Source: Candidatus Bathyarchaeota archaeon
GTDB taxonomy: Archaea > Thermoproteota > Bathyarchaeia > Bathyarchaeales > DTEX01
Direction of reading: 5' to 3'
Assembly: GCA_025059045.1 (NCBI GenBank)
Contig: JANXEA010000008.1
Coordinates: 124,001-188,000 of the forward strand
DNA length: 64,000 nt
A program made the translations under genes and the position numbers. Every line of letters begins with the position of its first letter. Positions within the stretch are counted from its first letter, which is position 1. Of this stretch, positions 16,086 through 39,766 are shown piece after piece. The notes under the pieces were generated by a model. It was given only the letters and a program-made list of their open reading frames with translations, searched no databases and was not told where the DNA came from.

Positions 16086-17150
16086 CTAGGATGAAGCAAG
16101 AAGCATATGTGCTTCCTTAAGCATTCTTGGAACATCTAGGCTGTATGGACATTTCTCCACACATTTTCCACATTGGACACACGCATCCGCCTTCACCTCC
16201 ATATGCCTGTACCTACCTCTAGCCCAGTCTCTTAATCCATAATTCTTGAAGTAAGCTAGTTGACGAAGGATTATTGGAATACGTATCTTCTGCGGGCAAG
16301 GTTGGCAGTATCCGCAACCGCGGCAAAAGCTCTTGCCAAGCGACTCCGCAGCTTTGACAAGTTCATTCCTCTCTTCTTCAGTCATCTTGGAGAAGGTTTC
16401 ACCTACCCTAACGTTCTCTTCAACCTCGGATATGCTCATCATTCCGGGGATAGCTATGCTTACCGCGTCGTTTGATAATACAAACCTGAGTGCATTCTCC
16501 GCTGTAATTGGAATTTTTGAGTACGATCTTAGCTCGGGTGGAGGATTTGCTAGGATTCCGCCTGCAAGAGGCTTCATTGCGATTACGCCAACATCCAAAC
16601 TCTTCGCTAGAGGCAGGATCTTTTCGTCAACAAGCTCATCATTCAAAATGTTATATGAGACCATTATTACCTCGAAGATGCCGGATCTTATTCCTCTTTC
16701 CATCGTCTCGTGAAAGCGGTGACAACTGAAGCCAATATGTCCTATCACACCATCTTTCTTGGCCTCTACAAGGGCTTCCATTGCCCCACCAGGACCCATA
16801 ACCTTCTGATAGTCCGACTCGTATCTGAGGTTATGGCAAAGGTAAAGATCTATATAGTCTGTGCGTAATAGTTTAAGACTTTCATGAATATCTTTTCTCA
16901 TATTTTCAGCAGTTGTTGCTGTACTCTTAGTTGAAATGTAAAACTCCTCTCTTCTTTCACTCACAGCCTCTCCAATCTTCTCTTCGCTGTCACCGTATGC
17001 TCTAGCCGTGTCGATAAAGTTGACCCCAAGGTCCAGAGCTCTATTCAATACCTTGCTACTTGTCGCTTTATCTATTAACGGCAGTTTGATGGCGCCGAAG
17101 CCTATTATTGAAACCTCAAGTCCAGTCCGCCCCAGCCTTCTCTTAATCAT
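16086..17150 (-). CDS. Aldo/keto reductase with C-terminal ferredoxin-like 4Fe-4S domain
   Basis: The 354-residue protein has an aldo/keto reductase barrel (GRTGLEVSIIGFGAIKLP, FIDTARAYGDSEEKIG, TDYIDLYLCHN) covering about 280 residues, then cysteine motifs CRGCGYCQPC and CVQCGKCVEKCP that should hold iron-sulfur clusters. This fusion is common in anaerobic archaea and bacteria and probably couples carbonyl reduction to ferredoxin. It overlaps the upstream membrane-protein gene by four bases, so the two are cotranscribed. Confidence 0.88.
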   Translation of the reverse strand: MIKRRLGRTGLEVSIIGFGAIKLPLIDKATSSKVLNRALDLGVNFIDTARAYGDSEEKIGEAVSERREEFYISTKSTATTAENMRKDIHESLKLLRTDYIDLYLCHNLRYESDYQKVMGPGGAMEALVEAKKDGVIGHIGFSCHRFHETMERGIRSGIFEVIMVSYNILNDELVDEKILPLAKSLDVGVIAMKPLAGGILANPPPELRSYSKIPITAENALRFVLSNDAVSIAIPGMMSISEVEENVRVGETFSKMTEEERNELVKAAESLGKSFCRGCGYCQPCPQKIRIPIILRQLAYFKNYGLRDWARGRYRHMEVKADACVQCGKCVEKCPYSLDVPRMLKEAHMLLASS

Positions 17151-17791
17151 TCATCATCCTCGCCTTTCTGTGATGATTTAACCTTGAAAATCTTGTCTAA
17201 ATAGTCATGAAAGAAGAACCATATTGCAAATACGCCCACCGCTAATCCCACTCCAATTGATAAGCCAAGCGTCAATGCACCCTTCACCTGATCGCTTAAT
17301 GCGGTAATATCAATGAGCATTGCTGTTATAAGAAGCAAGACTATGAGCATTGCATAGCTTCTAAGGCGGGTTTCAACTTTTACACGACCAATCAGCAGGT
17401 CAAATATAGCGAAAATGATGATGGCAATTATCACTATACTTGCGACACGTACACCGTAATAGAGGGCATCGGCCACAATTTCCATATATCTTTGTTCTAA
17501 GAAGAGATTTGCAATACTCAGGAATGCTATCAATCCAAGACCTAGATCAGCTAAAAATATTATGACGTTCTCCAATGAGAAAGGGAGGGGGATAAACTGT
17601 TTCACTATTATTTCTAACCTTGCAACTCTCATCAACCTTTTTAAAAAGAGGTTCAATACTTTAACCACGACAAGCGTAAGTGATACCATAATTATGGCTA
17701 TTAATATCTTCGGCAAAAGGCCAATAATTTCTGTTGAGATCTGCATGAATAATTTATTCAATATATCAAAGACCGTTTCCTCTTGCAACAC
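17147..17791 (-). CDS. Membrane protein with conserved TM helices (MscS-transmembrane-like), no beta domain
   Basis: The 214-residue protein has about five hydrophobic helices, for example LLPKILIAIIMVSLTLVV and SIVIIAIIIFAIFDLLIG. It resembles the membrane part of small mechanosensitive-channel-like proteins but lacks the soluble MscS beta domain, so channel function is uncertain. The start is a GTG. The stop overlaps the aldo/keto reductase start by four bases. The charged tail (KSSQKGEDDE) is probably cytoplasmic. Confidence 0.6.
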   Translation of the reverse strand: MLQEETVFDILNKLFMQISTEIIGLLPKILIAIIMVSLTLVVVKVLNLFLKRLMRVARLEIIVKQFIPLPFSLENVIIFLADLGLGLIAFLSIANLFLEQRYMEIVADALYYGVRVASIVIIAIIIFAIFDLLIGRVKVETRLRSYAMLIVLLLITAMLIDITALSDQVKGALTLGLSIGVGLAVGVFAIWFFFHDYLDKIFKVKSSQKGEDDE

Positions 17792-17865: not shown

Positions 17866-19188
17866 TCAATGAATAACGATCCATAGAGAACGATATATAA
17901 TGTAAAGTGTGGCTATTACTACTAAAAGGGATAGTATTCTAAATATTGTTAGCAGTGTTTCTCTCGAAAATTCAACACTCATTCTATATCCAGCCAAGCT
18001 CTGACTGTATAATAATTGCGAGTACGTTCTAGCGGCATCTTCTGGAACCACAGATACTTCTGGGATTAAGGACAGGGCAAGGATTGTAGCTGTCACCTTT
18101 ATTAGCATAGTAATCAAGAATGCTAGCATAAAGTTTCCGTCAACCGCATATCCTAAGATGCTTGAGATTATTTGAGCTGAATTTCCAAGAATCGTAAGAA
18201 GAATACCTGATCTTACTGCCCCAAATATCTCTTTGTACCTTGCAAAGAGAAATATTCCCAAAAAGTTTGCACCGGCAAATGTAAAGGATGTGTAAGCGTT
18301 TATTGCTGGATGTAAAAGCGGCCATGGAGTAATCCATACAATTATAGGTCCAGCGGCATTTAGCGCGAGGCCTAAGCGGAGACTCCTAAAAGACTTATTT
18401 CTCCAAAACAGGGAGGCGATGATGCTAGAGAGAGTACCCATGAGGCTCATTGAGGCGGTCAGAAAATCGGGCGCATTCAAACAGTTCATAAGATATGGTG
18501 TCCAGATTATTCCCATAAAGTTACTTGAGGCTGTTAGTGTAACAAAAAAGAGCGAAGTCGAGAATAACTTCTCCGGTTGAGTGATGACTGGCGGAAAGTA
18601 ATGTCTCTCAAGATCGGACAAACTCAGGAATAGAAGGAGAAATGTGGAAATAAACCCAATAGCGGAGCCAAGTGGAAAAATAAAATCGAATTCTCTTCCA
18701 TCAGGAAGAAATGCAAGCAAAAAGACCCCGACCGCGTAACCCATTATGCTGGAAACACCATTAGCAGCCGACCTTTCAGCCGTTATCTTCCTAACATGAT
18801 CCTCTGTTAATTCACTATATATTATAAAGGTTAGAAAGATGCTGACGAGAGATGAAAAGATCACGTGAAAGACATACAAGAGCGAGATGTGCAAAGTATT
18901 TCTGGCGAATGGCATTAGCAGCCACATCGCCCTTTCCAATGTATGAAAAGCCAGCAGCTTGACTTTCAATCTTTCCGGAACAAATCTTGGATTCTTGTAG
19001 ATCGATATGCCCGTAATTAGGGACGCAACTGCTGAAAGAAACACTATAAACGATATCTCGTTAACCTTCTGTTGAACAGAGACCAAATATACAACGAATA
19101 GACCTTTTGTAAGGGATGTATAAAAGCCGGCGAAAAATGCCTCTAATATCATTAACAACCTGAACTTGAAATTTTCAGTGTATCCCAA
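17866..19188 (-). CDS. Major facilitator superfamily transporter
   Basis: The 440-residue protein has about twelve hydrophobic segments in two halves, including FAGFYTSLTKGLFVVYLVS and SSNFMGIIWTPYLMN. The layout fits MFS carriers. No substrate motif is visible. It is the only evident carrier next to the glycan island, and since the island's hydrolases lack signal peptides it is a candidate importer of glycosides or released sugars. That link is inference. Confidence 0.75.
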   Translation of the reverse strand: MGYTENFKFRLLMILEAFFAGFYTSLTKGLFVVYLVSVQQKVNEISFIVFLSAVASLITGISIYKNPRFVPERLKVKLLAFHTLERAMWLLMPFARNTLHISLLYVFHVIFSSLVSIFLTFIIYSELTEDHVRKITAERSAANGVSSIMGYAVGVFLLAFLPDGREFDFIFPLGSAIGFISTFLLLFLSLSDLERHYFPPVITQPEKLFSTSLFFVTLTASSNFMGIIWTPYLMNCLNAPDFLTASMSLMGTLSSIIASLFWRNKSFRSLRLGLALNAAGPIIVWITPWPLLHPAINAYTSFTFAGANFLGIFLFARYKEIFGAVRSGILLTILGNSAQIISSILGYAVDGNFMLAFLITMLIKVTATILALSLIPEVSVVPEDAARTYSQLLYSQSLAGYRMSVEFSRETLLTIFRILSLLVVIATLYIIYRSLWIVIH

Positions 19189-19265: not shown

Positions 19266-21266
19266 CTAATCCAAAGGAATCCAAACGCACATCTCCGACG
19301 GTCCCCGATTTCCCCAGGCATAATATGGAATTAATTTTGCGTTTATCTCCTCCGGCTCCTTAATTACACGTTCACGGTAAAGTTTATTTTTCCAGTCGCC
19401 TTCCCGATACACATGGAACCTGCCCTCCAAGCTGATTAGTCTCTCGCCTGCAACGGCATCCTCTTTCTCTAAGAAACTGATATCACGTGGGATAAAGACT
19501 TCATTTATTCCCACATAGTCCGGCAGATCAATTGATTCAAGACAATATACTATCGGTCCTCTCTTCACTGCCACTTGATTTCTGCATTCCTCAACAAGCG
19601 GATGGGCTTCAATAAGTTTTGGTCTCATAGACATGTAGACTTCGACTTCATCACCCTTTTGCCATACCTGAGTGAAAGGCATATAAGTTCCCGGCCGAAC
19701 TTCATCACAAATCTCTTGTCCGTTAACCTTAATTATTGTTCTGTCTGACCACTCAGGGATCCGGAGATAGAGCGTAAATTTCTTGCCAGATGGCTTATCT
19801 ATGCAAAGTTTCACATACCCCTCCCACGGATATTCTGTCTCCTGTCTTATAACAATCTCATCGCCATTTAGTTTGGTCATAAGCATGTTGCTTCCATAGA
19901 GGTTTACCCATACTCCATCATGGGACAACAGATATGCATACATGGCTGACTGCGCGATTATGCGAACAATGTTAGGTGGACAGCAGAAACATTTTATATA
20001 AGGCTCTCTAACTCTCGACCAACGTAATCTATAGGGTAACTCAACTTGTCTTAGTGTGTTTGTATAAAAGAATTTGGTTCCATCTAAACTGATGGCGGCG
20101 AGAATGGCATTATATAGAGTCAATTCCAAGATTTCGGCAAATCTAGCTTGACCGAGTATCTTCAGCATGCGCCAATTCCATAAAATGTTTCCGACAGCGG
20201 CACAGCTTTCGTTATGCGCTATTGCATTTGGTAGCTGGTACTCAAGACCATAGGCCTGATGGACAAGCTGTATCTCTCTATGCACTTCTCCGCCATAGGG
20301 TGATGCACCGTCATATAAGGCTCCGCAAGCACCTGTAATATACATCTTTGTGTTCACAAGATTCTGCCAAACCTTTTCAAGCATACTTAAAAGGGATTCG
20401 TCACCAATTTCAGCGTATATATCTGCGACTCCAGCATAGAGATAGTTAGCTCTGACAGCATGACCCACAATTCTTTCGTGCATACGTAACGGTTTTCTAT
20501 CTTGATTCTGATCTGTCCCATCTCCGACAATGTCGCGAATCTCAATTAACCTTTTTGCCAGTTCAAGATATTTTGTCTTGCCTGTTACGCGGTAAAGGTC
20601 AATGACGCCCATATAATGTGAAGGGCATACGGCATTTCTAGCAAGTTTAACCGGATCCTTGCAACATATATCGTAGAGATATTCACATGCTCTTTCAGCA
20701 ATTTCCAGAAATGATCTATCTCCAGTAACTAGAAAATGTGCAGACGCCGCTGTCATCAGATGCCCCATATTGTATGTTACAAAATGATCCGGATCAGGGA
20801 AATCATCAACTTTCTCCCCGCGGCGACTTTTTATTATGACTGGAGTGTGGATATACCCATCTTTCCTTTGAACTCTCGAAAACACACCTACTATTTTATC
20901 CAATTGTCTGCGCAGATCCTCATTTCTGGTATACGCGTATGCGTATACTGCGGCTTCAAACCATTTATAAAAGTCACCATCATGCCATGGAGGACCTCTG
21001 TGGTTTCCCTCTTCGATACCAGCCGCTATTAGGAAGTTGGCATATGCGTGACTAATTTGAGGATCATTTAACAGCCGCCACATATTAGGAATCATAACAC
21101 TGAAGCATTTCTCAGATTTTTCGCCCCAGAAGCCACCAGTCCATCTTATTTCTCCAATCTTTGGGCTCTTAAGTCGGGCATATGGGCTTATTTTTTCTTC
21201 TTTGATTCCTACGGCAAACTCGCCCGCACCATCCACAGGATTAGACCTGTTCATATAACTACACAC
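19266..21266 (-). CDS. Glycoside hydrolase family 127 (beta-L-arabinofuranosidase-like)
   Basis: The 666-residue protein has the GH127 (former DUF1680) alpha/alpha barrel and C-terminal beta domains. The zinc and nucleophile site is present: E353 and C355 in NESC, and C428/C429 in KCFCCPPN, which match E338, C340, C417 and C418 of the characterised HypBA1 enzyme. The position expected for the acid/base glutamate appears to be Q337, 16 residues before E353, so the substrate or mechanism may differ. No signal peptide is visible. It is divergent from the GH2 gene across 74 bases. Confidence 0.88.
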   Translation of the reverse strand: MCSYMNRSNPVDGAGEFAVGIKEEKISPYARLKSPKIGEIRWTGGFWGEKSEKCFSVMIPNMWRLLNDPQISHAYANFLIAAGIEEGNHRGPPWHDGDFYKWFEAAVYAYAYTRNEDLRRQLDKIVGVFSRVQRKDGYIHTPVIIKSRRGEKVDDFPDPDHFVTYNMGHLMTAASAHFLVTGDRSFLEIAERACEYLYDICCKDPVKLARNAVCPSHYMGVIDLYRVTGKTKYLELAKRLIEIRDIVGDGTDQNQDRKPLRMHERIVGHAVRANYLYAGVADIYAEIGDESLLSMLEKVWQNLVNTKMYITGACGALYDGASPYGGEVHREIQLVHQAYGLEYQLPNAIAHNESCAAVGNILWNWRMLKILGQARFAEILELTLYNAILAAISLDGTKFFYTNTLRQVELPYRLRWSRVREPYIKCFCCPPNIVRIIAQSAMYAYLLSHDGVWVNLYGSNMLMTKLNGDEIVIRQETEYPWEGYVKLCIDKPSGKKFTLYLRIPEWSDRTIIKVNGQEICDEVRPGTYMPFTQVWQKGDEVEVYMSMRPKLIEAHPLVEECRNQVAVKRGPIVYCLESIDLPDYVGINEVFIPRDISFLEKEDAVAGERLISLEGRFHVYREGDWKNKLYRERVIKEPEEINAKLIPYYAWGNRGPSEMCVWIPLD

Positions 21267-24499
<3,233 letters not shown>

Positions 24500-24532: not shown

Positions 24533-25927
24533 ATGGAAACCTTCAAACTCAACTGGTCCTCCATAAGTTGGAGAGTGCCAGAATGGTTCAAAGATGCCAA
24601 ATTCGGCATCTATTGCCATTTTGGAGTTTACTGTGTACCTGCATTTGATAATGAATGGTACTCACATAACATGTATGTTGATGGGCATAAAGCGAACAGG
24701 TATCATATAGAGAAGTTTGGGCATCCATCAAAGTTTGGATATAAGGATTTTATTCCTCTTTTTAAAGCGGAGAAATTTGATGCCGATGAATGGTGCAACA
24801 TCTTTCTTGAGTCAGGCGCAAAATTCGCCGGAGTTGTAGCTGAACATGCTGATGGCTTTGCAATGTGGGATAGCGACCACACAGATTGGTGCGCAGGCAA
24901 AATGGGGCCAGAAAGGGACATCGTAAGCGAGGTGTGCAACGCTGTTAAAAAAATGGGGCTAAAATTCATTACAACTTTCCACCATCACTGGAATTGGGGG
25001 TGGTACCCAACAGACGATGAGACAGTAGATGCCTCAAACCCAATTTATTCTGGACTTTACGGGCCTAGAGCGCCTAGATGTGCCTTTGGAATAAACCCTT
25101 CAATTCTGCCCGACAACAATTTTCAGACACTATGGATGAAGAAAATTATGGAGGTTATAGACAAATATGCTCCAGACATCATATACTTTGACAGCAGGCT
25201 TAACATTATTGACGAAAAATATAGAGAGGAGGTAGTTGAATATTATTATGATAGAATTGGAAGACTAGGCCAGCACGGTGTTGTCACATATAAGTGCCAG
25301 GATCTTCCAGCGGGTGTCGGGGTTGTAACCGTAGAAAGATCGAGAATGAACAATCTAAAAGAGTATGTTTGGATGGAAGACGATTCGATCGATTGGAAAT
25401 CCTGGTGCTACGTTCAGAATCCAAATTTTAAGGATCCAGGGAGAATAATTGCTCAGCTAGTCGATGTTGTAAGCAAAAATGGCGTATTACTATTAAATAT
25501 TACGCCAAAATCTGATGGCGAGATTCCAGAGGAAGTTAAGAAAATACTTTTGGAAATTGGTGAATGGTTAAGAATAAATGGAGAGGCCATTTACGGATCT
25601 AGACCATGGCGTATATATGGGGAGGGCCCAACACAGTTCTCGGGCGATATCGTAAGGGAGGAGACCATTGGCAGTTACAAACCTGGTGATATACGTTTCA
25701 CCCGCAAATCTAACACATTATACGCGATCCTTTTGGAATGGCCTGGACACAATATTACGATTAATTCATTGAAAAAGTCTGATGTTAAGGTTCATGAAGT
25801 CACTTTGCTTGGTCTGGACAAAAAGTTGAGGTGGACGCAGAATGATGAAGGATTAAACGTGTGTATGCCAAGAGTAAAACCTTGCAATTATGCGTATACT
25901 TTAAAAATTTTATTAGACTACCTCTAG
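24533..25927 (+). CDS. Glycoside hydrolase family 29 alpha-L-fucosidase
   Basis: The 464-residue protein starts directly with the GH29 barrel (WFKDAKFGIYCHFGVYCVPA) and continues with HADGFAMWDS, TTFHHHWNWGW and the nucleophile aspartate in IIYFDSRL near residue 220. GH29 enzymes release alpha-L-fucose with retention. There is no signal peptide. A TTAAATA element at about 24496-24502, inside the end of the GH2 gene, is about 30 bases before the ATG, so it may also have its own leaderless transcript. Confidence 0.9.
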   Translation: METFKLNWSSISWRVPEWFKDAKFGIYCHFGVYCVPAFDNEWYSHNMYVDGHKANRYHIEKFGHPSKFGYKDFIPLFKAEKFDADEWCNIFLESGAKFAGVVAEHADGFAMWDSDHTDWCAGKMGPERDIVSEVCNAVKKMGLKFITTFHHHWNWGWYPTDDETVDASNPIYSGLYGPRAPRCAFGINPSILPDNNFQTLWMKKIMEVIDKYAPDIIYFDSRLNIIDEKYREEVVEYYYDRIGRLGQHGVVTYKCQDLPAGVGVVTVERSRMNNLKEYVWMEDDSIDWKSWCYVQNPNFKDPGRIIAQLVDVVSKNGVLLLNITPKSDGEIPEEVKKILLEIGEWLRINGEAIYGSRPWRIYGEGPTQFSGDIVREETIGSYKPGDIRFTRKSNTLYAILLEWPGHNITINSLKKSDVKVHEVTLLGLDKKLRWTQNDEGLNVCMPRVKPCNYAYTLKILLDYL

Positions 25928-25949: not shown

Positions 25950-27113
25950 ATGAGACGAGGCAAAAAATGTCTACTAAAAAAGAAGAGGATGGATAAGTGC
26001 CTACATCATGAAGAGCCTGACAGAGTACCCATAAGCGACTCATTTTGGAGCAGCTTCATAAAAAGATGGTGTAAAGAATTTAACCTTCCAGACGGCACAG
26101 ATATATATCGATACTACGACTTAGACTGGATCGTAACAATACCTAACATGGATCCACACATAAAGCAGTTTGAGATAATACAAATGGATAATGAAGGGGT
26201 AACTGTTCGAACTGGTTTTGAAGCTGTTATACGTAAAAAGTTTGCGGATCCCATGCCCGCCTTCCTAGAGTTTAGTATTGATACAATTGAAAAGGCTGAA
26301 AAATTCGAGTATGATGATCCATGGGACAAAAGAAGATACTTTTCGGGCGGAGACAATCAGATCGCAGGTGTCGGGGATACCTTTCAGACGAATTTGCCTC
26401 CTTGGATTGAGACGGTTAGATCTTTATACACACACTTTCCTGTTTACGGAAGCGTTTGTGAAGCGAACGAGCTCTTGACACGTTTGGTTGGAAGGAGAAA
26501 TATGCTCCTTTGGATTGCGCGATACCCTGAAAGATTTGGGCGAGTAATAGAAAGGGCAAATGAATTTGCTCTAGGAATAGCTGAAGCGCAAATCAAGGCT
26601 GCAGAAGGTTTACTGGATGGAATAGTAATATGGGGTGACTTCGCTTATACAAAGGACATGTTCTATTCTCCATCATATTGGCGTGAGTATTTTAAGCCAG
26701 GAGTAAAGGAGATAGTGGATCTTTGCCACAAATATGGCTTACCAGTCATCTATCACGGATGCGGCAACATATCACGAGTAATAGAAGATTTTATAGAAAT
26801 AAAGGTTGATGCGCTGAATCCGCTTGAAGCGAAGGCCGGATTAGATGTTATTGAACTACGGAGGAAATACGGGCATAAAATTGGTTTTTGTGGAAACATG
26901 GATGTGATTGATTGGGCGACCAAAAGCGCAGATGAATTGAAAGCAATTGTGCTTCGAAAGCTGAATGCCGCAAAAGGAGGCGGATACATCTTCCAGTCCG
27001 ATCACTCGGTCCCCAGTAATATTTCAGGATGGAGATACGATTTTGTCATAAAGCTTGTTCGAAAATACGGCAAATACCCGCTTAATCTAGGCGAGTACGA
27101 TATACCATTATAG
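25950..27113 (+). CDS. Uroporphyrinogen decarboxylase superfamily protein, first copy
   Basis: The 387-residue protein has the URO-D barrel (HEEPDRVPISDSFW, GDFAYTKDMFYSP, YHGCGNISRVIEDF, IGFCGNMDV, SDHSVP). It follows the GH29 gene by 22 bases. It is not a haem enzyme by context, since no haem genes are nearby. Relatives include methylcobamide:CoM methyltransferases; the H-x-C of their zinc site is kept as HGC, but their later cysteine is missing. It may act on an O-methylated or acidic sugar. GGGAG precedes ATG 25950. Confidence 0.8.
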   Translation: MRRGKKCLLKKKRMDKCLHHEEPDRVPISDSFWSSFIKRWCKEFNLPDGTDIYRYYDLDWIVTIPNMDPHIKQFEIIQMDNEGVTVRTGFEAVIRKKFADPMPAFLEFSIDTIEKAEKFEYDDPWDKRRYFSGGDNQIAGVGDTFQTNLPPWIETVRSLYTHFPVYGSVCEANELLTRLVGRRNMLLWIARYPERFGRVIERANEFALGIAEAQIKAAEGLLDGIVIWGDFAYTKDMFYSPSYWREYFKPGVKEIVDLCHKYGLPVIYHGCGNISRVIEDFIEIKVDALNPLEAKAGLDVIELRRKYGHKIGFCGNMDVIDWATKSADELKAIVLRKLNAAKGGGYIFQSDHSVPSNISGWRYDFVIKLVRKYGKYPLNLGEYDIPL

Positions 27114-27114
27114 G

Positions 27115-28515
27115 CTAGATGGAACCGATAGTTGCCTCACCAAAGTCAACTGTCTTTGCGGCTAATACTCTGCTAAAGTAATCAATGTCGCCCGCTTGAC
27201 CCCCCTTAAATGCTATCTCAAGTCCATTAATAACGTCGCTGTCGCTGTATACATAGCAGAGCGGAGCAGCTATTCCAATTGGCTTAGCTATTTGAAGTGC
27301 TTTGATACCTAGTCGACTTTGTATCATACCAGCTGTATCTCCACCACATATCACGATTCTCCTGATTTTAGTCTTCTCTATGATTTCTAAAGTGATTTCG
27401 CCGAGCCCCAAACCCAGCAATTCATTAGCCTCACTATACTCTATGCATGCTTCCTCAATTTTTCTTTTCATAAACTCTATTCTCGGATCCTTCATTCCCT
27501 TCGCTGAATGTATGATAACTGATACACCGCGCTTTAAGAAGGTGATAGCTTCCTGAACAACCCTATTCATTTCACGCTCCCTTTCGGATGCGTCAAGGAT
27601 ACTTGTCGGGCATAATGGTATCTCTCTAAAACCCATTTTTACAGCATAATCAATCTGTCTCTCAGTATTAGGCGAACATGTTCCCGATACAACCAGAATA
27701 GGCTTCTTTGCAGACAGCCGATGCCTAGACTGTTCTAATGCCATCCTAGTTATCCCAAGATCAGCCCAGATTTTCCCGAATCCATAACCGAGTTCTTGAG
27801 ACCCAACTATGAACAATGGTTTATCGCGCCGTAGACTCCAGAGTACTTCGCAAATGATCTTCATGTCACGATTTGATAAACAATCAAAGATGATGATTGA
27901 TGCGGATAATTCTTTTAATCGATCTATTTGGCGAAGTATGTGCTTTTTTCCTTTCCTAATGTCTAAAATGTTTATCAATCCGGTTTTTATCGTCGTCTGT
28001 TCTGATAAGCATAATCTTAGATCTGATTCATGCATGGGGGTAACTGGATGATTTCGCAATGAAGGATGCCTATCAAGCCGATAAATTTGTCCATTTGTAA
28101 ACGCAGCGTAATGGTTTCCGAAAATTGTAAACCTATTAAATTTTGGCGCCGCTGGTATCAGAGGTACAAAATCAGGGGAAAAAATTTTCATAGCAATCTC
28201 TATAGCTAACCCTATATTTCCTATCTCCTTAGATGAGTCAAAGGTGGAACATATTTTATATATGTAAATTGGGGTGCCATAGGACTTCATCTTTTCGAAG
28301 ATGGGTGGAAGATGACTTCTCATTTCATCTGAGCGCATGGATCTCGATGTTCCAGCTATGCCTATGGCTCTAGCTTTTGGAAAATGCTCACGTATAAAAT
28401 TCGCCTCTTTTGCATCAGTTAGGACTATAGTTGGCATTCCAGAAACCGTCAAGGTTTCCGCCAATGCCATGGATCCCGTAAAATCGTCACCGTAAAATGA
28501 TAAGAGTGGATCCAT
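27115..28515 (-). CDS. Four-carbon acid sugar kinase family protein (DUF1537; OtnK/OiaK-like)
   Basis: The 466-residue protein has both halves of the family: an N-terminal substrate domain (YGDDFTGSMALAETL) and a C-terminal nucleotide-binding domain (VVSGTCSPNTERQIDYA, then ICGGDTAGMI and FKGGQAGD). Members phosphorylate 3-oxo-tetronate, 3-oxo-isoapionate or related sugar acids. The gene lies seven bases after the RLP gene in one run, the pairing known for OiaK and OiaX in bacterial apiose catabolism. I infer that it makes the phosphorylated substrate of the RLP. Confidence 0.88.
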   Translation of the reverse strand: MDPLLSFYGDDFTGSMALAETLTVSGMPTIVLTDAKEANFIREHFPKARAIGIAGTSRSMRSDEMRSHLPPIFEKMKSYGTPIYIYKICSTFDSSKEIGNIGLAIEIAMKIFSPDFVPLIPAAPKFNRFTIFGNHYAAFTNGQIYRLDRHPSLRNHPVTPMHESDLRLCLSEQTTIKTGLINILDIRKGKKHILRQIDRLKELSASIIIFDCLSNRDMKIICEVLWSLRRDKPLFIVGSQELGYGFGKIWADLGITRMALEQSRHRLSAKKPILVVSGTCSPNTERQIDYAVKMGFREIPLCPTSILDASEREREMNRVVQEAITFLKRGVSVIIHSAKGMKDPRIEFMKRKIEEACIEYSEANELLGLGLGEITLEIIEKTKIRRIVICGGDTAGMIQSRLGIKALQIAKPIGIAAPLCYVYSDSDVINGLEIAFKGGQAGDIDYFSRVLAAKTVDFGEATIGSI

Positions 28516-28522
28516 CGCAGCC

Positions 28523-29806
28523 TCACATCTCGAGTGCAGCCTTTAGCTCGGCGAAATCTTTCTCCGACCCGTCAAATTTTCCCTTCTCCACCAGGATGTC
28601 AATAGCCTGTCTAAAAGCCTTTGCACCTGCGGTTACGCCTAGTGGATGATGAAAGACCGCTCCGCCCACACCTATCCCAAAGTCAAATCCGAGAATCTCG
28701 AAAAGTTTTGGAAGCAAATTAGCTTTAATTGATCCGCCAACGAATGGAAATGTACGTTTCTTATTGAAAAGCGAACCTCGGAGACCCGCGACTGCCCGAG
28801 CAAACTTCTCATATTGAACCCCAAACTTACCATATGGGTTCGGAAGCATCACCATGTCTGACCCGGCTAAACGTGCAATCTTACCATAGACGAGATGAGA
28901 ACTTATGCCGTGGTATGGGCTGGCATAATAGACTCCGCCAAAGTTAAGGTGAGCTAGTATGGGAACATTCACTTTTTTGTTCCGGGCTAATGAGCTAATG
29001 AGACTTATGCCAGCTGACAAAAAATTAATCATCAGCGCGCTGGCGCCATTTTTAACTGCCTTCTCAGCTTTTCTGATACATCTCTCAGGGTGATCTGTAA
29101 CATTCACTGCGTAAATTTTCTCTTCACCAGTCTCCTTAATTGCCTTTTTCAGGCTCTCAGCATACACTTTAACCCTCTCTATTACCGGCGAAAAAACAGT
29201 ATCGCCCATAACCTCGTCGTCCTTAATAATGTCGGATCCGCCGACCGCGGCTTCGTATAGTAGATGTGCACCCACTTTCGGCGAGTATCCAGTTGGCGGT
29301 TTAAGTGTAGTACTTAATAAGGGCCGTTTTGAAATTCCCAGCAGTTCCCTTAAACCATCTATTCCGAAATTGGGTCCTGGAAGTTGATCTACAAGATCTC
29401 TTGGTAATGCGATGTCAATTAGTTTTATGCTGCCTAGGTGACAGATATTCCCGAAAATAGATGAGAGAAGCATTGGAATCTGCCCTCCAAAGTTTTTGCT
29501 GGGGATAGCCAACTGAATTATGCATTGTTTTATGTCGGACTCTCTAAAGTTTTCATTCTCTATATCAGGGCACTCCCATACGCTTAAGACTTTACCCTTA
29601 AAGGGTTTTAAATCAACGTCTTCTTCCGCAGTCGATAGTTTTATCCATTCACCTACAGTCTGCTCATTAGCCATTTTGTATGCGAGCTCGATTACAGATC
29701 GCTCCTTGGTTCTTACGAAGTAGGTTGCAACCACATATTTCTCTATTTCAGGATCTTCTGGCAGAATTATTTCATCTATTATCCTCAATTCGCCACCACT
29801 CACCAA
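28523..29806 (-). CDS. RuBisCO-like protein (form IV), possibly a sugar-acid-phosphate decarboxylase
   Basis: The 427-residue protein is a large-subunit RuBisCO homologue. It keeps K169 in TTLKPPTG (matching K175), the carbamylation motif GSDIIKDDE with K195, D197 and E198 (K201, D203 and E204), H286 and K327 in the loop 6 region, and phosphate-site glycines in GVGGAVFHHPLG. The usual K-P-K-L-G of true RuBisCO reads K-P-P-T-G, so this is not a carboxylase of Calvin type. The DUF1537 kinase neighbour points to OiaX-like decarboxylation of a phosphorylated 3-oxo acid; that activity is inferred. Confidence 0.88.
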   Translation of the reverse strand: MVSGGELRIIDEIILPEDPEIEKYVVATYFVRTKERSVIELAYKMANEQTVGEWIKLSTAEEDVDLKPFKGKVLSVWECPDIENENFRESDIKQCIIQLAIPSKNFGGQIPMLLSSIFGNICHLGSIKLIDIALPRDLVDQLPGPNFGIDGLRELLGISKRPLLSTTLKPPTGYSPKVGAHLLYEAAVGGSDIIKDDEVMGDTVFSPVIERVKVYAESLKKAIKETGEEKIYAVNVTDHPERCIRKAEKAVKNGASALMINFLSAGISLISSLARNKKVNVPILAHLNFGGVYYASPYHGISSHLVYGKIARLAGSDMVMLPNPYGKFGVQYEKFARAVAGLRGSLFNKKRTFPFVGGSIKANLLPKLFEILGFDFGIGVGGAVFHHPLGVTAGAKAFRQAIDILVEKGKFDGSEKDFAELKAALEM

Positions 29807-29831
29807 CTTGGATGAATATAAAAATCAGCAC

Positions 29832-30542
29832 TTATTTGGAACAATTAACCATATTTTTTATTGTCCTAACTGCAAGCCTAGGGCTTGACAATACTGGTTT
29901 TCCAGTATTTTCGGCGAGCACTCTCTCTATTCTCGTCATGGATCCCTGCGCCAAAACTATTACTTCAGCTTTTTCGGAAATCCGAGAAGCTGTCTCCATT
30001 ATAAGTTTGTCATGCATCTCTGGAAGACCATTCATCAGCGCCTGATATGCTCCCTCAGCCAACCCCTGGATTATTGAGATATCCTTGTTCTCTTCGAGAG
30101 CCTTTTTCTTTAGCAGATTGATCGTTGGGGTAAGTGTAGATCTCACTGTAGCCAAGACACCTATCACTGAAAAATTTTTCACAGCTTCTTCCGCCATGGG
30201 TTCGTCTATTCTCACTATTGGTTTCTCAATGATTGGTCTTGCAATATCCACCACCTCGCCTACAGATGAGCATGTATTAAGTATTATGTCGGCGCCAGCA
30301 TCAACTGCAAGAAAGAAGTATGATATTAGACGCCTAGCGATGAATGGTGTCACACCGCCGTGAAGCATCACTTCTCTTATAATGCTGTCATCTAAAATGT
30401 TAATGAGTTGGCAGTCCGGAAATTCTTCAGCGAAGATCTTCCGCATAATTTCCATAAGCCCTTGGCCAGTATAGATCGCGGCAACGCATACCAAATATTC
30501 ATTCGCCCCCTCACTCTGGAAAGTCAGAACTTGCTTAAGCAC
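29832..30542 (-). CDS. Asp/Glu/hydantoin racemase superfamily protein with one catalytic cysteine
   Basis: The 236-residue protein has the two-domain racemase fold with its first active cysteine in LNTCSSVGEV. The second half, where racemases have a cysteine in a GCT-like motif, reads VLAQGSMTRI and has none. Single-cysteine members are known as decarboxylases (arylmalonate decarboxylase), so a racemase reaction is doubtful. It overlaps the GH78 gene by 19 bases and precedes the RLP gene by 25, so it is part of the sugar-acid operon, perhaps an isomerase or decarboxylase of an acid sugar. Confidence 0.8.
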   Translation of the reverse strand: MLKQVLTFQSEGANEYLVCVAAIYTGQGLMEIMRKIFAEEFPDCQLINILDDSIIREVMLHGGVTPFIARRLISYFFLAVDAGADIILNTCSSVGEVVDIARPIIEKPIVRIDEPMAEEAVKNFSVIGVLATVRSTLTPTINLLKKKALEENKDISIIQGLAEGAYQALMNGLPEMHDKLIMETASRISEKAEVIVLAQGSMTRIERVLAENTGKPVLSSPRLAVRTIKNMVNCSK

Positions 30543-33217
30543 TCAATTTTAAAGTGGTAGTTTCCTGAGCCGACGTTTAGAACGATGCGGTCCGTCTCAA
30601 TCCTGTTGAACGTTATCTCTGGCAGGTCGCATATGAATTGTCCTTCTCTCCAGATTACTTTCTCATTTTCTTTAATTATTTGATTCTTGTCTAACAACGG
30701 AATGTGAACTTCAGCTTTGCTATTTACTGGAATAGATATCTCCATCATTAGCGAGTTAACATCTCGCCACCATTTTGAAACAATTAGACCTCTATGCGTA
30801 TTTATTGAGGCACCAGCATGATTAAGGTCTTTGATAAATTGTGGTTTAATAACTATTTTTTCGAAACCGGGATTTTCTGGATCAGCATTAATACCAGCAA
30901 TTGCTTTATAAAGCCATACATCTATACTGCCAAACATTATATGGTTGTGTGAGTTCATTCCTGCACCAGCAAGAAATTCCCATCTTTCCCACAGTGTTGT
31001 CGCTCCCTCCTTGATCATGTACCCCCAGCTCGGGTATGTGGTCTGAGTTAAAATTCTGTATGCAGTTTCAGCATGTCCGAATTTTGTTAAAGTCTCTAAC
31101 AAGTATCTTGTGCCTATTATCCCTGTGTTAATATGGTAGTCATGAACCCTAGTTATATCGTCGATGAGCTTCTTAAGCACCGATTCTCTAAATTCTGGGG
31201 GTGTAATGTCTAAGAATAGAGGGATGCAGTTTGCCGTTTGGCTGAACGCGGCGGTAGTGGTAGATTCCAAAATCTCTTTTAACGGTTGGTAATATCCGTC
31301 TTTAAGGTACTTCTTATTGAATGACTCCTTGATCTTTTCAGCCATTTCCATATATTTTTTCGATTCGTCCTCTTTTCCAATTATTCTCGCAATATTTGAC
31401 AGCAATAATATGTCTTCATAATAGCATAGTGTTGACACAACCTCTCCAGGTGTAATTGACGATCTTACCTGTCCTGGTTGACACCAGTCTCCGTACTTAC
31501 TGAATTTTAATATATAGTCTTCCGCCTTACTGTTCAGGAAGTCAACCCATTTTTTCATGACTCCATAGTTTTCCTGGAGGACTCTTACATCTCCATAGTA
31601 GAGGAATAAGTTCCATGGTATGATTATGCAGGCGGTTCCCCAGGCTGGATCTGCTGGATAAAAGTTCCAATATGGAGGGGCAACATCAGGCAGGCTACCA
31701 TCTTCCTTCTGCGATAACGCAATGTCTCTAAGCCACTTTGTATAGAAAGACGCCATATCAAGATAGAAGTTGTAAATTGCCTCTTCCGCTGTTAGCTGTG
31801 CATCTCCAAGCCAGCCCATTCGCTCGGCCCGTTGTGGGCAATCCGTCGGGATACTCATTAAGTTGCTTAATTGGCTCCACAGTATGTTTTTATGAATGCT
31901 ATTTACGAGCTGATTTGAGCATAGAAAACTACCACTAGGTCTAACGTCTGTGTGGACAACTATTCCTTGAAGAGTGAAGATGTTTGGTACACCTGGGAAA
32001 CCGGTGACCTCAACATACCTGAATCCATGATAGGTGAATCTTGGCTCATAAACTTCTAGACCTTCACCGCGCAGGATATAGGTATCGGTGCATGCGGCTC
32101 TGACATTCGGTGCCGTATTTATTGTTCCATCAGAATTTAGGATCTCAGCGAACCTTAATTTGACCACAGTCCCTCTGGCACCTGATACTATGATTCTTAC
32201 CCATCCTGTAAAGTTTTGTCCAAAGTCGAATACGAATACTCCAGGCTTCGGATTAGTTATGTTTACCGGTTGTACGGTCCTAATAGCTCTTATGGGCGGG
32301 AAGGTTGCTTGCGAGACTAATCTACCGCCAGGGGGGTCTACAATTTTTGCTTGATCCCATTCTGAGTCATCATACCCCCACAGATCCCAGCCTTTGGGTT
32401 CCAGTCTTGCATCATAGGTTTCACCGTCATAAATATCATCTTCAAGAATCGGACCCTTAGCAGCTCTCCATTCCTCGTTAGTCGTGATAAGCACTTGTTC
32501 TCCATTGGTCAATTCTATTCTCATCTGGAGTATAGCTCTAGGGTCTCCGTAGTGTTTGAATGAATTTCTTCTATGAGGCTTGACATTGTATCTTCCATTT
32601 CCAAGAATTATACCGACAACATTTTCTCCATCTCTCAACATGTTTGAAACATCATATGTTGAATATAGTACAACTTTTTCATAATCAGTCCAGGCTGGAT
32701 CAAGGTGTCTATCGCCTACTTTTTCACCATTTATTCTCAGCTCATAGTATCCCAGGCCGCTGACGTAGGCTCTTGCTGATTTCACCTTTCCATTCAAAAT
32801 AAACCTATGCCTAAGAAGATTTCCGCCAGAGATCCATCTAGCTTTCCATTCTTCTTGATGAAGTATGCCTGTCTCAAAAGTTGCAATCTTGCTCCAAGGG
32901 CTAATCCTTCCTTTGTCATCCCACCATCTTACTTTCCAGTAGTAGGTTTTGCAACTTTCAAGAAGTTTTCCTCCATATTCAATATTAGTAGATTTATTTG
33001 AGTAAACCTTTCCGCTATCCCACATATCTCCAACATCATTGAATATGTTCTCCTGCCAAGAGGCGACCAATATTTGGTAAGCGGATTGCATTCGACCACG
33101 TTCTTCATGGTTCAATGTCCACGATAAACGAGGTTTAGCCACGTCTACTCCGAGAGGATTCACAGCGTATTCGCAGAATAGTTCAGTTGGAGGAGGTATG
33201 AGACTATTTTCTTCCAT
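30524..33217 (-). CDS. Glycoside hydrolase family 78 alpha-L-rhamnosidase
   Basis: The 897-residue protein has the rhamnosidase domain order: N-terminal beta domains (CEYAVNPLGVDVAKPRLSW; GEKVGDRHLDPAWTDYEK), a barrel with DCPQRAERMGWLGDAQ near 457-472 containing the general acid, and a C-terminal beta domain (IDVWLYKAIAGI). GH78 enzymes invert and release alpha-L-rhamnose. It has no signal peptide. It heads a four-gene run with the racemase-like, RLP and kinase genes, so rhamnoside cleavage is linked to acid-sugar breakdown. Confidence 0.92.
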   Translation of the reverse strand: MEENSLIPPPTELFCEYAVNPLGVDVAKPRLSWTLNHEERGRMQSAYQILVASWQENIFNDVGDMWDSGKVYSNKSTNIEYGGKLLESCKTYYWKVRWWDDKGRISPWSKIATFETGILHQEEWKARWISGGNLLRHRFILNGKVKSARAYVSGLGYYELRINGEKVGDRHLDPAWTDYEKVVLYSTYDVSNMLRDGENVVGIILGNGRYNVKPHRRNSFKHYGDPRAILQMRIELTNGEQVLITTNEEWRAAKGPILEDDIYDGETYDARLEPKGWDLWGYDDSEWDQAKIVDPPGGRLVSQATFPPIRAIRTVQPVNITNPKPGVFVFDFGQNFTGWVRIIVSGARGTVVKLRFAEILNSDGTINTAPNVRAACTDTYILRGEGLEVYEPRFTYHGFRYVEVTGFPGVPNIFTLQGIVVHTDVRPSGSFLCSNQLVNSIHKNILWSQLSNLMSIPTDCPQRAERMGWLGDAQLTAEEAIYNFYLDMASFYTKWLRDIALSQKEDGSLPDVAPPYWNFYPADPAWGTACIIIPWNLFLYYGDVRVLQENYGVMKKWVDFLNSKAEDYILKFSKYGDWCQPGQVRSSITPGEVVSTLCYYEDILLLSNIARIIGKEDESKKYMEMAEKIKESFNKKYLKDGYYQPLKEILESTTTAAFSQTANCIPLFLDITPPEFRESVLKKLIDDITRVHDYHINTGIIGTRYLLETLTKFGHAETAYRILTQTTYPSWGYMIKEGATTLWERWEFLAGAGMNSHNHIMFGSIDVWLYKAIAGINADPENPGFEKIVIKPQFIKDLNHAGASINTHRGLIVSKWWRDVNSLMMEISIPVNSKAEVHIPLLDKNQIIKENEKVIWREGQFICDLPEITFNRIETDRIVLNVGSGNYHFKIECLSKF

Positions 33218-33416: not shown

Positions 33417-34568
33417 ATGAATGAAAGGGAAAGATTCTTCGAAGTCGCCTTATTTGGCAACCCTGATAAGATTCCTCTCGCTATAGGCGACGCTAGACCC
33501 GCGACGAAAAATAGATGGGTTAGAGAGGGATTACCGGAAAATGCAAATGTTATTGAATATTTAGGATTAAAGGATTGTATTCTTAAGTCTGTTGAGATAT
33601 GCTCGTTCCCAAGCGAAGGGTTCAAATGGGAACCCAACCCTTCAAAGGTCAACATTGGACCTATCCCACCTTTTAGATTTAGGAAAGTTAAAGAGGATGA
33701 AAGATACAGGTTTTGGGTCGATAGCTTAGGCATAACTCAGATGGGATTAAAAGAAGATTGGGAGGATGGATGGAGCGGATTTGCTACAAGAGTTTTCATC
33801 GACTTCCCAGTCAAAAATAGATTAGACCTGGAAAAAATCAAGAAACGCTATTATCCGCGGGATCCTAGAAGATATCCAAAAGACTGGGATGAATTCGTAA
33901 GAAAACATAAGAAAAGAAATTATCTTCTTAGCGCTACTATAAGAGGCCCTTTCTGGTGGACACGTGACCTGATTGGACTTACGGGTATCGCCGTCGGAAT
34001 ATATCGCGAGCCCGAATTCATTAAAGAAATAATGGATATGTGCGCCGAGTTTCATATTGAAACATTGCGAAAAGCGTTTGAGGATTTAGAAATTGATTAT
34101 GTAATGATGAATGAGGATATAGCCTATAAGAAGGGCCCAATGATAAGTCCTGATGCCGCAAGAAAGTATATGGGTCCAGCATACAGAGAACTCACAAAAT
34201 TCTTTAGAGACCACGGAACAAAGATTATTGGTGTTGATAGTGACGGAAATATTGATAGTCTTATACCAGTTTGGCTGGATTTTGGCATATCATGGGTTAA
34301 GCCCTGCGAAGCGGCATCAGGCATTAATGTAGTAGAGCTGGGCAAGAAATATCCATCTCTAGTTATGAGCGGCGGGATCGACAAAAGAAAACTCTCTCAA
34401 ACTAAGGATGCTTTAGAAGAGGAAGTTCTCTCGAAAGTTCCAATTTTAGTTAAGAGGAAGGGATATTTTCCAGGAGTAGATCATGCTGTCCCACCTGATG
34501 TACCATTCGAAAACTTTGTATACCTAGTTTCTCTGCTAAAAGAAATCTGTGGATGGACAACACGATGA
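33417..34568 (+). CDS. Uroporphyrinogen decarboxylase superfamily protein, second copy
   Basis: This 383-residue URO-D-fold protein differs strongly from the first copy. Visible family segments are MNERERFFEVALFGNPDKIP, NEDIAYKKGPMISPDAARKY and, near the end, GYFPGVDHAVPPDVPF. The HxC zinc motif of corrinoid methyltransferases is absent (the equivalent segment is VDSDGNID). It is divergent from GH78 and convergent with the third URO-D-like gene. Proteins of this branch often occur among glycoside hydrolase genes, but their reaction is not known to me. Confidence 0.78.
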   Translation: MNERERFFEVALFGNPDKIPLAIGDARPATKNRWVREGLPENANVIEYLGLKDCILKSVEICSFPSEGFKWEPNPSKVNIGPIPPFRFRKVKEDERYRFWVDSLGITQMGLKEDWEDGWSGFATRVFIDFPVKNRLDLEKIKKRYYPRDPRRYPKDWDEFVRKHKKRNYLLSATIRGPFWWTRDLIGLTGIAVGIYREPEFIKEIMDMCAEFHIETLRKAFEDLEIDYVMMNEDIAYKKGPMISPDAARKYMGPAYRELTKFFRDHGTKIIGVDSDGNIDSLIPVWLDFGISWVKPCEAASGINVVELGKKYPSLVMSGGIDKRKLSQTKDALEEEVLSKVPILVKRKGYFPGVDHAVPPDVPFENFVYLVSLLKEICGWTTR

Positions 34569-34645: not shown

Positions 34646-35719
34646 TCATGATAATTTTTGGAGTAGCTTTTTCGCCTCCATTTCTGTCGGTGCATCAGCT
34701 ATTATGAAGAGCCTTTTACTATTAAGCGTAGCAATCATATTTTCCACACAGTTGAATGGAACGTGAAGCCAGATAGATTTGCCAGCTTCAAGGATCTTCT
34801 TGTACAAGGGTCTCCATTTTTGGGATTCTGGCGGCTCTTCACCAGCTCCCGGAACCCACTGAATCATGGTGATTTCCGGAATCTTTAGCAAAATATCAAG
34901 ATGTTGAATAGCATTTGGGCCGTCAAGATGATAAAGAACAAAGTCTAATTGGCTACACTGTCTGCGAAGGTATGGATCCACAAACTCCTTAAACATTCTT
35001 GGAGACAGGAACGCGCTTATGTCGCTTTGAACCTTACTTGTTCTTCCAGGAGCCCAGATCCTATAAACAGAGAACGCATTGCCTCCAACGTCATCCTTAA
35101 TCTTTTCATAAAAATGATTGTAGTAGATGAAATAGAGTTCCGTGATCTCCTCTAGCCTCGCATGCACCCATTTTGGACGTTTAAATAGATCGACTAACAG
35201 TTTCTCATGTCCTCTTAGTTGGGCGAGAGTGTCCAAACCCTCTATTAAATCAGGCATTCCTATTAGGTATCGCCCAAAACTACGCTTGGAGGCTTGAACA
35301 ATAAAATCGCAATGAAATTTCCACCACTTATTTTCCGGGTCAAATTCAAGGTGTTTATCTAGGTCAAGATCTGAGATTACTGGTTTGTACCAAACAGTTT
35401 TTGCATCTTCTCGGAAGATAGGTTCTGCTCCTAAGTAGAGCGCTAAGTCTCCTGGTCCAATCTCAGTATTGATTAATGGAAATGCTTCTCCTCCAAAAAA
35501 TGTGTTTCTCATCCTGATTTCAGAATTACGGATCCTATAATCAATATTAGTTCGCCTTTCCATGAATGTTTTAGGTGCGCGTACTTTCTTTCTCACCACT
35601 GTCTCTTTTGGCGCATAAATTGCTAAGATTGGTCGATTAATATCCTCGCCGAGCCACCAAGCTGAAAGCCTATCTCTTGCTTCTTTCCAATCTTCTTTAA
35701 ATTCGAGCAATGGGGTCAC
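34646..35719 (-). CDS. Uroporphyrinogen decarboxylase/methionine-synthase-like barrel protein, third copy
   Basis: The 357-residue protein starts at a GTG with TPLLEFKEDWKEARDRLSAWW, a beginning seen in a divergent URO-D branch. The barrel has LIGMPDLIEGLDTLAQLRG, LSPRMFKEFVDPYL, LYHLDGPNAIQHLDILL and MIQWVPGAG. There is no HxC motif. It may act on a sugar-derived acid or methyl group; I cannot name a reaction. It stands alone on the minus strand between the second URO-D gene and the GH31 gene. Confidence 0.72.
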   Translation of the reverse strand: MTPLLEFKEDWKEARDRLSAWWLGEDINRPILAIYAPKETVVRKKVRAPKTFMERRTNIDYRIRNSEIRMRNTFFGGEAFPLINTEIGPGDLALYLGAEPIFREDAKTVWYKPVISDLDLDKHLEFDPENKWWKFHCDFIVQASKRSFGRYLIGMPDLIEGLDTLAQLRGHEKLLVDLFKRPKWVHARLEEITELYFIYYNHFYEKIKDDVGGNAFSVYRIWAPGRTSKVQSDISAFLSPRMFKEFVDPYLRRQCSQLDFVLYHLDGPNAIQHLDILLKIPEITMIQWVPGAGEEPPESQKWRPLYKKILEAGKSIWLHVPFNCVENMIATLNSKRLFIIADAPTEMEAKKLLQKLS

Positions 35720-38308: not shown

Positions 38309-39766
38309 TTACTGCTCGATACGTCTTATTCTCAACGCCATGTATGACTTGCCAGGTAGGTCGACTTTACTACCTTTCACGAATCTCTCTCCTAGCTGTT
38401 CAATAGTCATGTTCCATGTGTCAATTATATCCACATTATATTGTGATCCTTCTGGCAGAAAATCTAGAATCCTAAATCTTGGACGGTTAATGCCGAAATA
38501 TATGAGGAAATAGCGGTTATCCTCTGTGTAACAACCTACTGCTCTACCAGTCTTGAAATCTATCGGTTTTAATGCGTAATATGGGATGGATTCCATTATT
38601 TTGCGTAGGAATTCTATTCTCCTCGGGCTTTCACCATGAAGCGTTCCTCCTTTTGACCACCATAATATCTCTTCACGGTTCCAATACGTCTCTCCATGCG
38701 TTACATAGGCTACGCTTGCGTATCCAACCCAAAACCTTCGAACAACCTCTTCAGGCGGAAGATTTCCCCAGTCACGATGAATGTCTCCTTCATATCCACA
38801 TTCGTCCACGATGATTGGTTTTCCAAACTCTTTCCTCCACTCCTTTATTTTAGATGCTAAGTCAAGATCCTGATACTGAACACTCACATGTGTGACCCAT
38901 GGTTTACTGTAATCATATAATGTTCTGCAGTTGTGGATCGATCTTAGATGGCCATAGGGATCATTCTCAACTATTATCTTGAAGTATCTGTCCCATTCAT
39001 CCATCGTCATGGATTGCATAAGATCATATTCGTTGGCTAGGGACCACCAGACGTTGCGGAATGCGGATAATCGGGCGACTATGTATTTCAGGTAACGTTC
39101 ATTGGTCTCACTTCCCATCTTGCTGTATCCCCATCGGTCGTAGGGGTGGAACAGGATAATGTCTGCTTGGATACTTAGATTAAGAAGATCCATTACTCTT
39201 TGTTCAAGGTGTTGGAAAAATTTTGGGTTGAATCTGGTGTAATCCCATCCATCTGAAATATTTCCTTCAAAAGGATAGTATATTGGCTCATTACTGTTGA
39301 AGACGTAATGCTTTGGAAAGACGCACATTCGAAGCTTGTTGAATGGCGATTTTTTTAATGTCTCAATCGTCTTTCTTTCGAGATCTTCTCCTTGATGAAT
39401 CCATGCGTAGCAAGTTGTTCCAACTGGCAGGAAGGGTTGTCCATCAGCATACTCAAAATGGTAAGCATCCCTAACTTTAACTGGTCCATGATTTTCAGGT
39501 GATGGATCAACACATTCGAGAAGCCCTGACTTCCCATCTAATTCCGGAATATTACTTTTTATCACATATTTCCATGGGCCCAAATTATCTGGCATGAACC
39601 TGATCTTATAGGTACCTTCTCCATCATAGAAACCTCTAATGAGTAGTCGCCTGTCTTTTTGGGTAAATTCCGCCATTATCTCTACATCTAGGAAGGGATT
39701 TCCCTTCTCAGGTCCCTTATAGGATACTTCGAAAATTCCCCATTGCTCAACCTTAGGAACCTCCAA
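38309..39766 (-). CDS. DUF5060 / apiosidase-like (DUF4038-related) glycoside hydrolase
   Basis: The 485-residue protein begins with a DUF5060 beta domain (WGIFEVSYKG, FYDGEGTYKIRFMPDNLGPW), then a TIM barrel with ADGQPFLPVGTTCYAWIHQ, SLANEYDLM near the middle (E is a likely acid/base) and IIVDECGYEGD (E is a likely nucleophile), and a small C-terminal beta domain. The barrel is related to DUF4038, the family that includes the GH140 apiosidases of rhamnogalacturonan II. The exact glycosidic bond is inferred. No signal peptide. It is convergent with GH31. Confidence 0.8.
   Translation of the reverse strand: MEVPKVEQWGIFEVSYKGPEKGNPFLDVEIMAEFTQKDRRLLIRGFYDGEGTYKIRFMPDNLGPWKYVIKSNIPELDGKSGLLECVDPSPENHGPVKVRDAYHFEYADGQPFLPVGTTCYAWIHQGEDLERKTIETLKKSPFNKLRMCVFPKHYVFNSNEPIYYPFEGNISDGWDYTRFNPKFFQHLEQRVMDLLNLSIQADIILFHPYDRWGYSKMGSETNERYLKYIVARLSAFRNVWWSLANEYDLMQSMTMDEWDRYFKIIVENDPYGHLRSIHNCRTLYDYSKPWVTHVSVQYQDLDLASKIKEWRKEFGKPIIVDECGYEGDIHRDWGNLPPEEVVRRFWVGYASVAYVTHGETYWNREEILWWSKGGTLHGESPRRIEFLRKIMESIPYYALKPIDFKTGRAVGCYTEDNRYFLIYFGINRPRFRILDFLPEGSQYNVDIIDTWNMTIEQLGERFVKGSKVDLPGKSYMALRIRRIEQ

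Follow-up and report, generated by a model that had tools for sequence, protein, structure and literature searches.

What does a RuBisCO-like protein (RLP) do in an archaeon in which its gene lies between those of an acid-sugar kinase and a racemase-like protein, behind a rhamnosidase? The question is raised by positions 27115-33217 of a 64,000-nucleotide stretch of Candidatus Bathyarchaeota archaeon (assembly GCA_025059045.1, contig JANXEA010000008.1, positions 124,001 to 188,000), which is called the window here in its full length. Only a few reactions of RuBisCO-like proteins are known, namely those of a methionine-salvage enolase, a sulfur-linked isomerase and two apiose enzymes (PMC6302742). 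A sequence-only reading of the window had proposed a route for apiose or a similar sugar, with a kinase and an RLP like the bacterial OiaK and OiaX, a third enzyme of its own and an extension of this RLP function to archaea. The OiaK-type kinase and the plant-polysaccharide setting have held in the present analysis, while the OiaX-like RLP, the unique third enzyme and the archaeal novelty have not. With moderate confidence, the run is read here as a general module, a variant of the kinase-RLP acid-sugar pathway that uses an unassigned RLP clade.

Four genes in one run

Four real open reading frames (ORFs) were found in the run:

27115..28515, minus strand: DUF1537 (four-carbon acid sugar) kinase of the OiaK clade, 466 aa (PF07005 and PF17042)
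28523..29806, minus strand: RLP of an unassigned clade, 427 aa (PF00016, trees and topology tests)
29832..30494, ORF to 30542 (236 aa), minus strand: Asp/Glu racemase-like protein (PF01177; Pfam score and alignments)
30524..33217, minus strand: alpha-L-rhamnosidase of glycoside hydrolase (GH) family 78, 897 aa, first gene of the run (PF17389)

The Pfam scores of all four genes are far above chance level: SBD_N at 189 bits and NBD_C at 93 bits in the kinase, RuBisCO_large at 152 bits and RuBisCO_large_N at 34 bits in the RLP, and five GH78 domains in the rhamnosidase, the best being PF17389 at 372 bits. The racemase-like protein belongs to its superfamily with Asp_Glu_race at 58.6 bits against a cut-off of 31. 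By the longest ORFs the intergenic spacings are 7, 25 and -19 bases, as had been read. The first two stand, as do the four minus-strand genes, but the overlap holds for the longest ORF only. The racemase-like gene probably starts at TTG 30494 rather than GTG 30542, because a 68%-identical archaeal orthologue (L076) begins there and the tblastn matches of other relatives begin at 30476-30485. The spacing to the rhamnosidase gene would therefore be about +29, and the -19 overlap is likely an artefact of taking the longest ORF.

An RLP of a separate clade beside an OiaK-type kinase

The RLP carries the GSDIIKDDE motif and has KPPTG at the K-P-K-L-G site, in agreement with the sequence-only reading. 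In two trees it paired as sister with an RLP from a Fibrobacterota metagenome-assembled genome (MAG; JADFYW010000006, L033), to which it is 50% identical (support 100/100 and 100/99). This pair was in turn sister to the archaeal RLPs L036, L037 and L039 (99/95 and 97/94), which were joined by L038 in the first tree. These archaeal sisters are 41-43% identical to the window RLP and mostly lie next to FGGY kinases in place of a DUF1537 kinase. Three of their loci (L036, 894-7083; L037, 6804-10369; L038, 9312-12875), all uncharacterised, carry an RLP, a xylulokinase-like FGGY kinase and a class II aldolase.

Forcing the RLP into the OiaX/DUF1537-linked clade cost 52 and 204 log units in the two trees (approximately unbiased (AU) test, p 2.9e-5 and 4.3e-8), and forcing it with MtnW cost 18 log units (AU p 0.008). 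Thus the likeness to OiaX that had been claimed was rejected, and the grouping with methionine-salvage RLPs, which would have refuted the sequence-only reading, did not occur. Among the NCBIfam profiles, those of MtnW scored best (313 and 270 bits against cut-offs of 409 and 514). The RLP reached 147 of the 700 bits of the OiaX equivalog NF042437 and 225 of the 497 bits of RuBisCO form III (TIGR03326), and no mtn genes were found among the annotated window genes. Judged by its sequence, the RLP is neither OiaX nor MtnW and is a member of a separate clade without assigned function.

The kinase, which had been likened to OiaK, fared differently. OiaK is its top NCBIfam profile (391 bits, below the cut-off of 700 of the equivalog NF042436), followed by OtnK (179 bits) and D-threonate kinase (101 bits). 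In the kinase tree, the window kinase and all RLP-linked kinases formed one 100/100 clade apart from OtnK and the archaeal PdxA-linked kinases, and the haloarchaeal kinases adjoining class II aldolases also fell inside the OiaK clade when the tree was widened. By tree and best profile the kinase is of the OiaK type, this being a predicted activity, and its gene directly adjoins the RLP gene as that of an OiaX partner does. It is 44% identical to the RLP-adjoining kinase of the Fibrobacterota MAG. RLPs from two distinct clades are therefore found as partners of the RLP-linked OiaK kinase clade. The RLP and kinase genes travel together, because each is a sister of the same Fibrobacterota pair with an ultrafast bootstrap of 100 and in the same gene order. 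This nearest locus differs from the window in having an upstream 3-keto-acid cleavage (DUF849-type) enzyme (L033, 8867-9679) and neither racemase nor rhamnosidase.

Active-site residues of the RLP

The residues of the RLP were tabulated in spinach RuBisCO numbering. E60, W66, N123, K175, K201, D203, E204, H294, K334, G380, G403 and G404 are retained, and the changes are T65E, K177P, R295L, H325M, H327M, S379G and G381S. In the numbering of the RLP itself, Lys195, Asp197 and Glu198 make up the metal triad, Lys169 corresponds to K175, and Lys327 to K334 of loop 6. A function as RuBisCO carboxylase was rejected on the active-site changes K177P, R295L, H327M, S379G and T65E.

In RuBisCO structures, the second phosphate is held by R295 and H327 and the first by T65, W66 and glycines. 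Since K177, R295 and H327 are absent from the RLP, a monophosphate substrate is likely, and it would sit at the first phosphate site (P1) with its carboxylate near K334. OiaX sequences show the opposite pattern, with R295 retained and W66 and G380 altered; in this respect the window RLP resembles MtnW. However, MtnW loses E60, N123 and K334 (Ser there), all three of which are retained in the window RLP, and the loop-6 K334 is common to the window RLP, RuBisCO and the OiaX clade.

Recurrent partners and archaeal precedents

A single Cys (C91 in ORF numbering) is invariant among relatives of the PF01177 protein, which have AQ-x-SM, in 12 of 12 aligned sequences, at the site of the second racemase Cys, so that only one of the two catalytic cysteines of true racemases is present. 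In Paraburkholderia and Caballeronia the neighbours of the gene are sugar transporters and NAD(P)-dependent oxidoreductases. A DUF1537 kinase accompanies it in Deinococcus, along with an oxidoreductase and a class II aldolase. In Haladaptatus (two species) and Haloprofundus it occurs with a Gfo-type dehydrogenase, a class II aldolase and an OiaK-type kinase, and in Natronosalvus it lies near an RLP-kinase pair. The order in Haladaptatus and Haloprofundus is racemase, class II aldolase, kinase, and in some haloarchaea the aldolase apparently stands in the place of the RLP. On a plasmid of Rufibacter tibetensis (L088, 7992-14112), an RLP, an OiaK-type kinase, the PF01177 gene, a symporter and a pectinesterase are consecutive, with a GH28 gene nearby; the same three families thus occur in one run with pectin-degrading neighbours, but the RLP is of the OiaX clade.

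The PF01177 gene is therefore a recurrent partner and not peculiar to the window archaeon. The third enzyme that had been thought distinct to it also accompanies OiaK-type kinases in Bacteroidota and in haloarchaea, as a partner of these kinases in several phyla that has gone unrecognised. Among 18 loci with an OiaK-clade kinase, ApnO was present in 5, the PF01177 racemase in 6 and both in none. A replacement of ApnO by the PF01177 protein is suggestive only, the chance of zero overlap being about 0.09 and the loci not independent.

The occurrence in archaea is likewise not new here, since pairs of a kinase and an OiaX-clade RLP are already carried on haloarchaeal plasmids, which weakens the extension that the sequence-only reading had drawn. 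By the deposited annotations, a plasmid of Haloarcula sp. JP-L23 (L090, 6986-11628) has an RLP and a DUF1537 kinase of OiaK type with an ApnO homologue (40-45%) nearby, and Natronosalvus has an RLP and a kinase; both RLPs fall inside the OiaX clade. The Haloarcula set is likely the canonical apionate route in an archaeon, and a literature search found no description of an OiaX-type route in archaea.

A proposed pathway and its alternatives

The gene set probably serves to dismantle an unusual plant sugar acid. Tentatively, at somewhat less than even confidence, we take the run for a module that catabolises a 3-oxo acid sugar supplied by an intracellular glycosidase island. Glycosidases would set free a rare sugar, either apiose or some other sugar of pectin, which enzymes encoded elsewhere would oxidise to the oxo acid; apiose is plausible given the pectin-type glycosidases and an apiosidase-like protein. 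The PF01177 protein may then rearrange or isomerise the oxo acid through its single catalytic Cys, replacing the ApnO step, and the kinase, to judge from its clade, would phosphorylate the 3-oxo acid. Finally the RLP, with Lys195 carbamylated and Mg2+ on Lys195, Asp197 and Glu198, would bind the phosphomonoester. Acting as a decarboxylase or a hydrolase, it would break the bond to the carbon that carries the carboxylate by means of Lys169 and the loop-6 Lys327. It would occupy the slot of bacterial OiaX and, apparently, that of the class II aldolase in some haloarchaea.

The closest known system is the OiaK/OiaX (and OiaT) module of D-apiose catabolism, reportedly described by Carter et al. 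in 2018 (as cited in PMC6302742). The window shares with it an RLP gene followed by an OiaK-clade DUF1537 kinase, the setting of plant cell-wall sugars, and the carbamylated-lysine triad, K175 and K334. It differs in the clade of its RLP, which lacks R295 and H327 and keeps the P1 side, in having a racemase-like protein and in being without a convincing ApnO and without RpiB.

Several observations weigh against the proposed pathway. In the genome, which is about 98% complete and was probed for pathway genes by single searches, the best match of an ApnO query had 20 bits and RpiB was not found; RpiB is required for the L-erythrulose-1-phosphate branch. The residue pattern reversed relative to OiaX means that the phosphate is probably at the other end, which counts against an identical OiaX reaction, and the window RLP is alone in having Glu at Thr65. 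A true racemase step would make no sense on 3-oxo-isoapionate, because its C2 bears no hydrogen. Moreover, the racemase occurs without an RLP in G007, a relative from the same family.

In its strict form, the sequence-only reading amounts to the bacterial D-apiose route, in which OiaK and OiaX lead via 3-oxo-isoapionate 4-phosphate to L-erythrulose 1-phosphate. The kinase clade and the apiosidase-like protein within the island are in its favour, but the RLP lies outside the OiaX clade (AU p 4.3e-8; 147 of 700 bits), the opposite phosphate site is retained, and ApnO and RpiB are wanting as said, so that this route is improbable. Still less credit can be given to a methionine-salvage enolase or a CO2-fixing RuBisCO located here by chance. 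Although the best NCBIfam matches are MtnW, both scores are under their cut-offs, the MtnW grouping is rejected, K334 is retained, mtn genes are lacking among the annotated window genes, and the RuBisCO residues K177, R295, H327 and S379 are absent; this explanation is largely refuted.

Two further explanations are unlikely but deserve more weight. The RLP could act on a ketose 1-phosphate as an enolase or isomerase and cleave no C-C bond; the phosphate would then occupy the P1 site, as it does in MtnW and when RuBP is bound. The P1 residues W66, G380, G403 and G404 are retained and the residues R295 and H327 of the second site (P2) lost as in MtnW, the sister archaeal RLPs lie beside xylulokinase-like FGGY kinases, and aldolases of the ribulose/fuculose-phosphate type are present in three of those loci. 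However, K334, E60 and N123, altered in MtnW, are retained here, and the partner kinase is of the OiaK type, not FGGY. With about the same low probability, the substrate could be a linear acid sugar (3-oxo-tetronate or 3-oxo-pentonate), epimerised or isomerised at C2 by the PF01177 protein, with the RLP in the role of OtnC and a ketose phosphate such as dihydroxyacetone phosphate as product. The acidic C2 hydrogen of a linear 3-oxo acid could be moved by such an enzyme, PF01177 relatives lie beside NAD(P)-dependent oxidoreductases, DUF1537 kinases and aldolases (Deinococcus) and sugar transporters (Paraburkholderia), and the genome encodes a dehydrogenase of the 3-hydroxyisobutyrate/LtnD type, at a contig end. 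The kinase, on the other hand, groups with OiaK and not with OtnK (391 vs 179 bits). The genome also has five Gfo-type matches.

A role of the RLP within rhamnose catabolism is unlikely, because the only class II aldolase of the genome adjoins a RhaA-like isomerase and an FGGY kinase on another contig (L104, 6477-10114). This cluster would therefore be a separate route for the rhamnose released by the GH78 enzyme. A direct coupling of GH78 cleavage to the run, as the sequence-only reading had proposed, is an inference.

Returning to the 3-oxo acid-sugar module, it is possible, though held a little more cautiously than the module itself, that the window RLP and its Fibrobacterota and FGGY-linked archaeal sisters constitute a new functional class, which would act on monophosphates made by the neighbouring sugar-acid kinase and hold their phosphate at P1. 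Together with a PF01177 enzyme replacing apionate oxidoisomerase, this class would form a branch of pectic acid-sugar breakdown that has not been described before. An RLP clade pairing with two unrelated kinase families and having a mixed active site is a testable case of re-use of the RuBisCO fold, and it offers a lead on the archaeal breakdown of rare pectic sugars.

The surrounding glycosidase island

The island extends past 27115-33217 on both sides:

19266..21266, minus strand: GH127 (beta-L-arabinofuranosidase family), 327 bits; 70% orthologue in the relative G007
21341..24499, plus strand: GH2 beta-galactosidase of LacZ type, NCBIfam Bga2A at 1105 bits, above cut-off
24533..25927, plus strand: GH29 alpha-L-fucosidase, 310 bits
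36000..38261, plus strand: GH31 glycosidase, alpha-xylosidase-like, Pfam 270 bits, NCBIfam alpha-xylosidase 407 bits against a cut-off of 606
38309..39766, minus strand: apiosidase-like glycosidase (PF13204 with DUF5060 and DUF5605), 68 bits against a cut-off of 26.5; nearest solved structure 4n0r
25950-27113, 33417-34568 and 34646-35719: three URO-D/MtaA-like genes, lying in between the glycosidase genes

These glycosidases bear out the degradation of plant polysaccharides as the setting. Aceric acid is a sugar of rhamnogalacturonan-II. Since an aceric acid hydrolase is known among GH127 enzymes elsewhere (PMC10850190), a diet of pectic side chains appears plausible.

A related island of GH2, GH29, racemase, GH127 and one URO-D-like gene, 65-72% identical, is present in G007. 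The RLP was searched for in that genome and not found, though the racemase and several glycosidases are retained. Among 21 genomes of the family, the RLP is exclusive to that of the window; two others gave weak RuBisCO-type matches.

The URO-D/MtaA-like genes are possibly corrinoid methyltransferases acting on O-methyl sugars. The one at 25950-27113 retains the H-x-C ... C pattern, and that at 34646-35719 has a 65% orthologue in the G007 island. At 16086-17150 the window encodes an aldo-keto reductase carrying a C-terminal 4Fe-4S ferredoxin domain, and between it and the GH127 gene lie two ORFs (17147-17791 and 17866-19188) without Pfam match.

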